Source: Pseudanabaena mucicola FACHB-723 (lineage in GTDB: Bacteria; Cyanobacteriota; Cyanobacteriia; Pseudanabaenales; Pseudanabaenaceae). Taken from it: a stretch of 58,992 nucleotides of DNA. The stretch lies in assembly GCF_014696385.1 (NCBI RefSeq), contig NZ_JACJQB010000021.1, positions 1-58,992 of the forward strand, given 5' to 3'. Both the position numbers and the translations under genes were made by a program. This document shows, piece after piece, positions 10,426 to 13,770 of the stretch. The number at the start of each line of letters is the position of its first letter. Positions within the stretch are counted from its first letter, which is position 1. The notes beneath the pieces were generated by a model. That model had not been told where the DNA came from. It saw nothing but the letters and a program-made list of their open reading frames with translations, and searched no databases.

Positions 10426-10547
10426 ATAGTGCAACATAGTTAAGCGCGATAGCAGTGGTGATTAACTTAGCAAGCTAGGATAATGAGTTGAGACGACGCA
10501 ATGCGCCGCCGCTTAATTATTATGGCTTCTTAGCATTTGGTGGGTTA

Positions 10548-12833
10548 ATGCAATTAGGTTTACGGTTTCTCAAAATGCGACATTGGGTGAGATTCATCGC
10601 GCTTACCTTGTCAGCACTTTTATTAGTTCTATCAATAGGTGGACTGTTTCCCCAATCATCGGTGGCGCAATCTCAAGAAATTGCGATCGCAGTTTCAGTT
10701 CCCCTCAGTGGCGATGGCGCAAACGGCGGACAAGAAATAGTTGATAGCATCAAACTATATATTGATTCCACTAATCGAGATGGCGGGATCAACGGTCGCC
10801 CCCTCAAGCTTTTACTTTTTGATGACAAAGGCAGTGTGGAAACAGTCAAACAAGTTGCCCCCGAAATAGTTAAAAGTAACGCTGTGATTGTGTTGGGACA
10901 TCGTTCATCCGATGCCTCGATCACCGCAGGTAATATCTATCAAGAGGGTAAATTGCCCGCAATTACGGGAACAGCTAACAGCGAGAAAGTGACCAAAGAT
11001 CGTCCTTACTATTTTCGGATGGTCTATACCAATAATGCCCTCGCCCAAACCCTCTCAATCTATGCTCAACAGGTTTTGCAGTTCAAAACCGCTAGCATCA
11101 TTTACGATCAAGCCAGTAAAAATGAGCAGTCCCAGTCGGAAGTGCTCAAAGCTGCCTTTGAAAAAAATGGCAATGGCAAGATTCAACGCACTTGGGGGAT
11201 CGATTCCGATCCGAATAATCGCAAGCAATCAGTGCAAACAATCGTTGATGAATTGGCGGCTGAACCTGAAGCAGGCTTGATTTTCCTACCCTTAACCAAA
11301 GAGGATGTTGCCGAAGATTTTTTGGTTGCCCTCAAACGTAAGGGTATTAAAAATCCAATTTTTAGTGAACAAGCACTGGGCAGAGAATCCTTTGCCAAAC
11401 GCTTTGAGAAGTACGACGAGGAAAAGAATAATATTGGATTCTTTACGGATGGAATGTACGTCGCATCACCGATTCTGTTCGACAGTGCGGGTGCTGACGC
11501 TCAAGACTTCCTAAATGCCTACGAACAAGCCTACAACAAACCACCCTCCTATTTAGGAGCTAAGTTTTATGAGGCTGCCATCGCAGCAGTGGATGCCATT
11601 CGCAAGGTAAATCCGAAGGCAACAGCAGATAGTTTAATTAGCGATCGCGAACAGGTACGCGCCGAGCTAGAAAAACTGAACAATCGTAAAGTTGGTCTGC
11701 GGGGCTTAACAGGACTGCTCTATTTCAATGCCAATCGCAACAGTGATCAACCTGTGCGTCTTGCTCAGTTTGAAAACCATCGACTCGTTTCTGCGGCTCA
11801 ACAGTTCACCCCCATCTCTAACCCTGAGCGTCTGGAGTTGGCAAAGGAAACGCAAGCAGGAAATATTGTCCAATCAGGTGAGCAATATTTTTGGCGACAA
11901 CGGGTGGTCTATGCAGGGCTAGATCTCAATAAAATGAACCGCATTGATAAATCTAGTTTCACTGCCGATTTTTATGTGTGGTTTCGCTATAACGGCAATG
12001 ATGAACCAACGGAAATTCAATTCCCCGATGCCGTCAGCAACAGTGTCAACCCTAATGCCCCTGTATTTGACCCCAAAGCACCCATCAAAGCCGAACTAGT
12101 CAATGGTTTAAAATATCGCCTCTATCGGGTACGTGGTGAATTTCGGAATTCCTTTGACTTTCGTGACTATCCCTTCGACTCACAACGTTTAACGCTGCGC
12201 TTTGACAATCCCAATCTTTCTACAGATCGATTAATTTATGCGATCGATAGGGTCGGTCTCAAATTACCGAAACCTGAAGCCCTAGAGCGTCAACCCTTCC
12301 AAGGTCTACAACTCTGGAACTTCAAAGACATCACCTATTTTCAAGATTCCTCGCGCAGCACCTCTACCCAAGGCGATCCCGATTTACTCCAAGCCAATGC
12401 TCAGGTAGAGTACCCCGGTCTCAGTGTGCGGATGTCCTTTCAGCGTAAAACCCTAGTGTTTTTATCGAAGAATCTACTGCCACTGATTTTATTGTCGCTT
12501 TTAACCTACTGTTGCCTCTTTTTCCCCTATACGATGTTTGTACCGCGCACGATGGCTCCTGCCTCAGCGCTACTATCGGGAATTGTGTTATTGCTGTCCT
12601 TTAACAATCAATTGCCAGAGGTGGGATACACTGTCGCTTTAGAATATGTGTTTTATGTTTATTTCAGTTTGTGTTTATTGCCAATTGTGGTGACGGTGAT
12701 TGGCACAAAATTAGAAAGAGATGGGCGTACAAAAGCATTTCGCCTGTTAAATATCGGCTCATGGATTTTGTATCCCGCGATTATGATTGCCACAATCGCT
12801 AGTTATGCGATCGCATACGGCAGCCGTCTCTAA
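10548..12833 (+). CDS. Pentameric ligand-gated ion channel with N-terminal periplasmic-binding domain
   Basis: A 761-residue inner-membrane protein. A signal/anchor helix spans about residues 12-32. Residues 43-440 are a type 1 periplasmic-binding domain (LivK-like), from IAVSVPLSGDGANGG to the lobe ending near LRGLTGLLYF. Residues 450-635 form the channel's beta-sandwich domain, with the Pro-loop FRDYPFDSQ (538-546), almost the same as FRRYPFDSQ in Gloeobacter GLIC. Four membrane helices follow: about 641-662, 668-688 (pore M2), 694-719 and 732-756. Cys-loop cysteines are absent, as in other bacterial channels. Start at ATG 10548 has GGTGG upstream; an in-frame TTG at 10488 lies in repeat sequence. 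Ligand and ion selectivity unknown. Confidence 0.9.
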   Translation: MQLGLRFLKMRHWVRFIALTLSALLLVLSIGGLFPQSSVAQSQEIAIAVSVPLSGDGANGGQEIVDSIKLYIDSTNRDGGINGRPLKLLLFDDKGSVETVKQVAPEIVKSNAVIVLGHRSSDASITAGNIYQEGKLPAITGTANSEKVTKDRPYYFRMVYTNNALAQTLSIYAQQVLQFKTASIIYDQASKNEQSQSEVLKAAFEKNGNGKIQRTWGIDSDPNNRKQSVQTIVDELAAEPEAGLIFLPLTKEDVAEDFLVALKRKGIKNPIFSEQALGRESFAKRFEKYDEEKNNIGFFTDGMYVASPILFDSAGADAQDFLNAYEQAYNKPPSYLGAKFYEAAIAAVDAIRKVNPKATADSLISDREQVRAELEKLNNRKVGLRGLTGLLYFNANRNSDQPVRLAQFENHRLVSAAQQFTPISNPERLELAKETQAGNIVQSGEQYFWRQRVVYAGLDLNKMNRIDKSSFTADFYVWFRYNGNDEPTEIQFPDAVSNSVNPNAPVFDPKAPIKAELVNGLKYRLYRVRGEFRNSFDFRDYPFDSQRLTLRFDNPNLSTDRLIYAIDRVGLKLPKPEALERQPFQGLQLWNFKDITYFQDSSRSTSTQGDPDLLQANAQVEYPGLSVRMSFQRKTLVFLSKNLLPLILLSLLTYCCLFFPYTMFVPRTMAPASALLSGIVLLLSFNNQLPEVGYTVALEYVFYVYFSLCLLPIVVTVIGTKLERDGRTKAFRLLNIGSWILYPAIMIATIASYAIAYGSRL

Positions 12834-12840
12834 AATAAAA

Positions 12841-12871
12841 GTTGTGGCTCACGCTCCGCGTGAGCCACAAC
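12841..12871. terminator. Stem-loop between convergent channel and DUF4436 genes
   Basis: Arms GTTGTGGCTCACGC (12841-12854) and its complement (12858-12871) enclose TCC. It lies between two convergent stops and likely terminates both. Confidence 0.75.
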
Positions 12872-12885
12872 TTTGTTAGACAGGG

Positions 12886-13770
12886 TTAGACAGGCTTTTT
12901 ATAGCGAGTTAACCAACAGAAGAACAAAATTGGCAAGGAAATCGCCACTAATGACTCTGCCCAAAAGAAAGATAGAAAATCGGTCAAACTACCAAGGGGA
13001 GGCACACCCGGTTGCAGATTGCGTACCGCGGGCAAGGCAAATAACATACCCGCAATTAGGGTATACATCCCAAACTCAATAGGGCGTGGTTGCCAAACTA
13101 CAACCATCGTCATCGTGAAAATAATCAAGCCAATTAGCCACATCGCAATCATCAAAAAGATCGAGAATGATTTGGTAATCACTGATCGCGAAACCTGCAC
13201 ACGCAGTCCCATATAGTCATCGCTAGATTCAAACTCAGACTTGGGGATATAGTCAATATCAACGTTAAAGCCTGGAACTGCCCCGAAAAATCTGACTAGC
13301 ATCGGAATATCTTCTGTTTCATTTTTAGGGTTAGTGAAGAAGAGATAAAAATCAGAAGTATGTACATCAAATGGATAATCACTGACCTTACCAGTGGATA
13401 GAGAGATAGTCCCCGTTACAGCATCAGGAATACGGCCCTTGGCAAGGGTGACTTCAGCTTTACCACTTTCAATACCTGTGAAAAATCGTAAGTCTTCCGC
13501 TAACCTAGCATCTTTACTGAACTTACCTTCTGGGGTGGCATCAAAACGAAAGCCGAGTTCGCCTTTAATCGGATCGATGGATAGAAGGTTAATCTCCACA
13601 TCCATGCGATTTGGTATAGTTTCGTCACCAAAAACAATATCTGCCGCACGTTGAGTGCGATCGTTTTGATAGAGATAGAGTGCACCTGAGAATGATGCAA
13701 TGAAAAGCGCCACAAACAGAATAATGATCAGAAGCCTTTTTCTGAACAATTTACTAGACGTATCTTCCAT
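12886..13770 (-). CDS. DUF4436-family membrane protein
   Basis: A 294-residue membrane protein of unknown role. One N-terminal membrane helix (about residues 12-34) leads to a beta-rich outside domain (45-195) containing the segment SDYPFDVHTSDFYLFF. Two or more helices follow: 199-226, 231-250 and 266-287. The protein is convergent with the ion-channel gene and shares its terminator. The YPFD motif in a strand-turn and the beta-domain-then-helices plan recall the channel next door, but there is no M2-like sequence and homology is not shown. DUF4436 proteins also occur in actinobacteria without known function. Confidence 0.8.
   Translation of the reverse strand: MEDTSSKLFRKRLLIIILFVALFIASFSGALYLYQNDRTQRAADIVFGDETIPNRMDVEINLLSIDPIKGELGFRFDATPEGKFSKDARLAEDLRFFTGIESGKAEVTLAKGRIPDAVTGTISLSTGKVSDYPFDVHTSDFYLFFTNPKNETEDIPMLVRFFGAVPGFNVDIDYIPKSEFESSDDYMGLRVQVSRSVITKSFSIFLMIAMWLIGLIIFTMTMVVVWQPRPIEFGMYTLIAGMLFALPAVRNLQPGVPPLGSLTDFLSFFWAESLVAISLPILFFCWLTRYKKPV

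Follow-up and report, generated by a model that had tools for sequence, protein, structure and literature searches.

Why a membrane channel should carry a complete bacterial solute-binding domain, and what that domain does for the pore, is the question raised by a single gene on contig NZ_JACJQB010000021.1 of Pseudanabaena mucicola FACHB-723 (the window, i.e. the whole stretch of 58,992 nucleotides that was analysed). Its frame is uninterrupted on the forward strand from 10488 to 12833 and yields 781 amino acids counted from the first TTG, or 752 from ATG 10575, which we prefer as the start of the fusion gene (10575–12833, +). A reading made earlier from the letters alone (the sequence-only reading) had placed the start at 10548, where an in-frame ATG is indeed found, but ATG 10575 has the better support: of the 16 other rows in our alignment A4, 11 start one or two residues ahead of it, four come from longer frames and one is cut short. 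The chain consists, in this order, of a probable secretion signal, a complete type I periplasmic binding domain (PBP-I), the β-sandwich extracellular domain (ECD) of a pentameric ligand-gated ion channel (pLGIC) and a four-helix pore. The 16 proteins that we examined from several cyanobacterial families share this architecture, and the fusion is therefore not a product of chance. With slightly better than even confidence, we take the protein to form a homopentameric flytrap-gated channel of the cytoplasmic membrane.

The N-terminal segment (10575–10673, +) is, as judged by eye, a probable signal peptide or hydrophobic helix, with a helix at residues 2–24 in the model, and would direct the domains that follow to the periplasm. 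The PBP-I occupies 10677–11774 (+), where Peripla_BP_6 of Pfam matches aa 64–429 with an E-value of 1.5e-31 over positions 1–339 of its 343-position profile, and ANF_receptor matches the same domain at 7.7e-16. Foldseek recovered a two-lobe PBP-I fold, with LivJ-type matches such as 3hut and 4gnr at E-values of about 1e-15, and of the 50 PDB fold matches in the list all bear PBP-type titles except four chains of 7ylt, whose title is uninformative. That a complete binding domain of this type precedes the channel, as the sequence-only reading had it for a cyanobacterial host, is borne out by these matches and by the channel profiles below.

Neither Neur_chan_LBD nor Neur_chan_memb of Pfam matched the window protein at an E-value of 0.1, the channel half having diverged too far for these models, and TIGR00860 gave 28.1 bits, short of its curated cut-off of 280.2; these missed Pfam and NCBIfam scores reflect divergence and are not a defining biological feature. 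Searched as a single sequence, the channel half matched ELIC and GABAA-type PDB chains (best E-value 1.8e-8), and no chain among the best 60 of 80 PDB matches covered both halves. With a 14-row channel profile, the best 60 of 318 PDB matches included GABAA receptors at 2.9e-18, GLIC at 5e-13 and DeCLIC at 3e-13, and M2 aligned without a gap with the GABAA receptors, which places the pore helices in the pLGIC (Pro-loop receptor) superfamily by homology. The description as 'GLIC-like' thus holds at the level of the superfamily and not more closely than that.

Table 1 of PMC4795631 gives the seven residues most conserved across pLGICs as F/Y-P-x-D, the β-9 Trp, the pre-M1 Arg, the M1 Pro and the M2–M3 Pro. 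All seven are present in the window protein; all 16 fused rows share Tyr, Pro, Asp, the β-9 Trp, the pre-M1 Arg and the M1 Pro, and 14 of them have the M2–M3 Pro as well. All on the forward strand, the ECD has approximate limits of 11865–12449 from alignments and the profile, the Pro-loop tip YPFD lies at 12168–12179 within the motif FRDYPFDSQ already noticed by the sequence-only reading, and its partner, the pre-M1 Arg, is encoded at 12444–12446. The helices follow as M1 (12453–12518, with the kink Pro at 12480–12482, placed by a low-confidence model and residue alignment), M2 from −2' to 23' (12540–12617), M3 (12624–12719, model and alignment) and M4 (12729–12821), which is expected to end in the periplasm.

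M2 reads V−2', P−1', R0', L9' and P23' at its marker positions and is identical from −2' to 23' in 15 of the 17 rows of A4. A helix that could not line a pore had been named beforehand as grounds for abandoning the channel; with its gap-free match to GABAA receptors and its retained R0', L9' and P23', this M2 should be able to do so. These residues also speak against a non-conducting sensor that would signal by conformation or via a partner protein, as does a chain without a cytoplasmic signalling domain. Some relatives adjoin signalling genes, for example a CHASE2-cyclase gene (L072) or a dCache-HAMP gene, as would suit such a sensor, which we nevertheless consider very improbable.

Among animal channels, cation permeation is associated with an acid near −1', and the anion-channel signature at −2'/−1' is Pro-Ala. 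At these positions the window protein and its six nearest rows have V-P, four sister rows have K-E and an acid stands at −2' in 13 of the 24 unfused comparators, whereas most of subclade B (defined below) was left unread owing to an alignment gap. The window group therefore looks anion-like and the sister rows cation-like at the pore mouth, in agreement with a figure legend of PMC549065 in which Glu marks cation channels and Arg marks anion channels. As R or K occupies 0' in 79% of pLGICs (PMC4795631), R0' alone is not diagnostic; it is R0' at the inner mouth without an acid at −1' or −2', i.e. a pore mouth lacking an acidic ring, that suggests that the pore is more likely to be anion-permeable.

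The binding domain was compared with E. coli LivJ using the ligand contacts of a docking study (PMC6983066). Ser79 is kept in the window protein, while Leu77 is replaced by Arg, Thr102 by Asn and Tyr202 by Thr, and the Cys53/Cys78 pair is lost. Glu226, which we take to be a LivJ contact, is replaced by Gln, with a Glu one residue away that perhaps reflects an alignment shift. The pocket is accordingly not the branched-chain amino-acid pocket of LivJ, and an amino-acid ligand deduced from pocket identity was discarded as unsupported, since the residues are mostly replaced. Among the PBP matches that Foldseek listed are proteins that bind branched-chain amino acids, aromatic acids, urea or amides, and the 'amino acid or similar solute' of the sequence-only reading thus found no specific support. 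Position 77 varies widely among relatives, and the ligands therefore probably differ too.

The replaced pocket would suit a PBP-I that serves as a regulatory or assembly cap without a ligand of its own, the channel answering another cue such as pH, as in GLIC, or calcium loss, as in DeCLIC. Two observations count against such a cap. The stretch GHRSSDAS, which covers LivJ pocket positions 77–80, hardly varies among the close relatives in A4, as expected for a ligand site, and the PBP is under strong purifying selection, with a median ratio of nonsynonymous to synonymous substitution rates (dN/dS) of 0.061. A cap is thus quite improbable in our view. For the ECD and the transmembrane domain the medians are 0.036 and 0.057, and the N-terminal 33 residues are the least conserved part at 0.185; these values come from 66 pairs among 12 genes of the window's group, with saturated-dS pairs excluded from the ratio, and are rough because dS is high. 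Every folded domain is under purifying selection, and both halves are kept. The same genome encodes a further PBP-I fusion (L145, C18:6334–7371), which by eye is joined to what appears to be a nucleotide-cyclase-like domain.

In the mechanism that we propose, each subunit would carry its Venus-flytrap PBP-I in the periplasm, where a small polar solute would close it; the movement would pass to the β-sandwich ECD below. From there the YPFD Pro-loop and the pre-M1 arginine with which it forms a salt bridge would carry it on to the M2–M3 loop, so that the M2-lined pore would open. By opening the pore, an external solute would change the membrane potential or the balance of anions. A different role was proposed by Tasneem et al. 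(2004; PMC549065) for PBP-I, PBP-II (type II) and Cache partners, in which the binding domain merely collects or concentrates the solute, and the channel opens when that solute occupies the classical site between ECD subunits. A free-standing PBP-II gene beside the relative L071 (L071:5305–6726) fits such a delivery role, whereas the window ECD, by eye, has no WxPD loop-A motif and few aromatics in the loop-C stretch; the loop-A evidence is weak because unfused relatives such as L059 also seem to be without WxPD. Capture of this kind is unlikely in our estimation, though worth keeping in view.

The distribution of the fusion bears on the flytrap-gated channel in another way. A total of 388 cyanobacterial genomes were queried with the channel half; 69 gave some match (E-value of 0.001 or better) and 30 a strong match (>150 bits), these 30 being counted by channel homology, with PBP-I confirmed by Pfam or alignment in part of them. 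Named relatives are mostly Pseudanabaena, and 21 of 26 same-genus genomes have a strong match, including a copy interrupted by a contig end (G006) and one whose N-terminal part is encoded by a separate frame (G010, = L035). When a tree of 39 selected rows was built from the channel part alone, one branch (100/98) separated the 16 fused rows from 23 other cyanobacterial pLGICs, and the fused rows formed two subclades of 11 and five (subclade B). They represent one well-preserved cyanobacterial clade of PBP-I–pLGIC fusions, which is new here.

Several findings weigh against a flytrap-gated pentamer. The unlikeness of the pocket to that of LivJ weakens the claim of ligand binding. The gene is missing or fragmentary in five of the 26 same-genus genomes (fragments only in G022, as L077, and nothing in four) and split in one more, and is therefore dispensable. 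The AlphaFold model of the whole protein, a monomer, has a mean predicted local distance difference test (pLDDT) score of 59; it is good in much of the PBP, but most of the channel part is below 60, and the domain contacts and the pentamer are not captured. The channel assignment therefore rests on the sequence profiles and diagnostic residues and not on the model.

A related head occurs on a different pore. Four proteins (L116:3747–6812, L117:2597–5800, L125:867–4370 and L134:1–2895) combine a PBP-I and a pLGIC-type ECD with an MscS pore (MS_channel_2nd); the first three are from Azospirillum, L134 belongs to a genome covered by the Myxococcota search, and L125 additionally carries a cyclic nucleotide-binding (cNMP) domain. 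The channel profile A1 detects the ECD of all four, with E-values of 9.9e-26, 6.9e-25, 8.1e-23 and 1.9e-11. In all four heads the Pro-loop Asp is replaced by Gly (MAFFT and hmmalign), the β-9 core Trp is retained and the pre-M1 Arg is missing from its column (both MAFFT). On the PBP columns alone, 17 fused PBP-I domains, pLGIC- and MscS-fused, group together against seven others with 93/90, and with 95/92 when the linker is included, the outsiders being few: LivJ, LivK and five from the genome of the window, one of which is itself in a longer frame. Loss of the Asp–Arg pair from heads that keep the ECD core without a pLGIC pore suggests that the pair couples where that pore is present. L116 is annotated as an ABC transporter substrate-binding protein and adjoins type I secretion genes.

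Three relatives carry a second flytrap. In L039:3597–7361, L051:166–3726 and L054:4553–8101, which make up three of the five subclade-B proteins (1183–1255 aa, mutual identity 41–59%), PBP-I and pLGIC are followed from M4 onwards by a C-terminal PBP-II (SBP_bac_1), which would be periplasmic since M4 should end outside. Their relative L071 has no C-terminal PBP-II; the stand-alone gene just upstream of it, an SBP_bac_8 gene, is distantly similar, with 22% identity to L054 (E-value 5e-7) and weaker or no similarity to L039 and L051. Other arrangements were seen in passing: a pLGIC with a C-terminal SBP_bac_5, a peptide/nickel-type PBP-II, in L055:2487–5114 from a cyanobacterium and L139:1–3036 from the Myxococcota search, and an N-terminal NMT1_3 (PBP-II) joined to a pLGIC in L136:1426–3492 and L142:7–2169, both from genomes of that search.

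Together these variants lead to a wider proposal, which we offer tentatively and as a whole at a little under even confidence: PBP-I and ECD would be one inherited head that sits on both pLGIC and MscS pores, which are unrelated, and lacks the Asp–Arg pair on MscS; one cyanobacterial branch would have added a second flytrap after M4; and the window channel would be the simple intact form, a flytrap-gated and probably anion-selective pLGIC. It has difficulties of its own. The Pro-loop Pro is Ala in two of the four MscS-type heads and retained in the other two (L117 and L125), a basic residue stands one residue before the pre-M1 column in L134 (Arg) and L116 (Lys), hmmalign places only L134 around pre-M1, and the four heads do not resolve as one clade in the PBP tree. 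MscS is heptameric whereas pLGICs are pentameric, and the head may therefore not always act as a pentamer.

Fusions of this kind have been known since 2004, and the sequence-only reading was right that genome surveys had noted them. Tasneem et al. (2004; PMC549065) described PBP-I–pLGIC fusions with the same layout, an N-terminal PBP-I directly before the ligand-binding domain and four helices in one chain, in the alphaproteobacteria Magnetospirillum and Bradyrhizobium, and cyanobacterial pLGICs as simple in architecture; here the fusions form a cyanobacterial clade with subtypes, the comparison being by description and not by sequence. PMC4795631 discarded terminal domains and remarks that associations of this sort are known at genome level only, and PMC9221113 states that many N-terminal domains resemble PBPs. 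Among the titles and abstracts that literature searches listed, with several lists capped and subscription papers thinly covered, none described the structure of a PBP-fused pLGIC or its ligand, an MscS fusion or a C-terminal PBP-II fusion. What is new is the cyanobacterial clade, the selection acting on it, the PBP-II branch and the head on an MscS pore.

Among characterized proteins, GLIC and ELIC have no extra domain. GLIC, ELIC and DeCLIC share the pLGIC core with the window protein, although the N-terminal lobes of DeCLIC are of another kind than PBP-I (PMC12664993). GABAA and glycine receptors, the best pore matches of the profile in the PDB, likewise have R0' and no acid at −1'; however, they have no PBP, and the window protein has no Cys-loop cysteines and has V-P at −2'/−1'. 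Ionotropic glutamate receptors also place a PBP-I ahead of a channel, and L039, L051 and L054 even hold both PBP types, but the pores are unrelated: that of the window protein is a pLGIC-type M1–M4 and is not inserted in a PBP-II, and the PBP-II of the relatives follows M4 and does not surround the pore helices. LivJ-type substrate-binding proteins share the head fold, which here has a mostly changed pocket and is part of a membrane channel chain. The clade supplies intact and strongly conserved single-gene examples, some by name from cultured strains, which makes what PBP-fused channels sense approachable at the bench, and the MscS and PBP-II variants offer naturally occurring exchanges of parts with which one could test how a flytrap acts on its pore.

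Downstream, a terminator-like hairpin of 17 pairs (12838–12874, scored on the − strand) separates the fusion gene from a convergent DUF4436 gene (12886–13770, −; Pfam 2.7e-41). The DUF4436 protein also has YPFD and shows one N-terminal helix and a β domain followed by three helices. The two best PDB matches of its profile are octopus sensory or chemotactile receptors, which are pLGICs, at non-significant E-values of 0.07 and 0.11. HHalign aligned DUF4436 with 24 unfused pLGICs over 242 columns at a probability of 96.6 and a score of 74.8, where 100 block shuffles scored no higher than 30.7. With only the fused rows as partner, the score of 30.5 (probability 10) was not significant, shuffles of the similar alignment A1 reaching 33.6; the probability was 24 with A2 and 53 with five classical rows. 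The signal is thus clear only with broader pLGIC alignments. A pLGIC hidden Markov model gave 7.8e-5 for one of 12 DUF4436 proteins and 0.01 or worse for eleven, and a DUF4436 model found nothing better than 0.93 among pLGICs. As a strong lead rather than proof, DUF4436 appears to be a distant pLGIC relative with M1–M3 and an N-terminal helix and without M4; AlphaFold from its single sequence gave no usable model (pLDDT 46).

DUF4436 occurs above the cut-off in 23 of 242 genomes, many of the same genus, and in three of 19 hand-picked genomes; a viral scan found no relative, and a full-text search listed a single paper, on Aspergillus. blastp found it beside none of 27 listed loci of the fusion and its relatives. 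A functional partnership suggested by adjacency was rejected, because DUF4436 sits elsewhere in other genomes that hold it and the terminator-like hairpin lies between the genes.

Beside the window copy there is neither a dCache_3-HAMP gene nor a second pLGIC. A search of the same genome, made without a positive control, found no second pLGIC, and PF02931 matched neither this genome nor 14 control genomes and is therefore uninformative. Among 13 close relatives with at least 2.7 kb downstream, one holds a second-pLGIC remnant, five hold neither gene, and in seven a dCache_3-HAMP-type gene (shortened in L078) and a second pLGIC come directly after the fusion gene in the same orientation. The reference for this pair is L024:6248–8672, the locus on which Pfam was run, where the second pLGIC matches Neur_chan_LBD at 2.9e-21.
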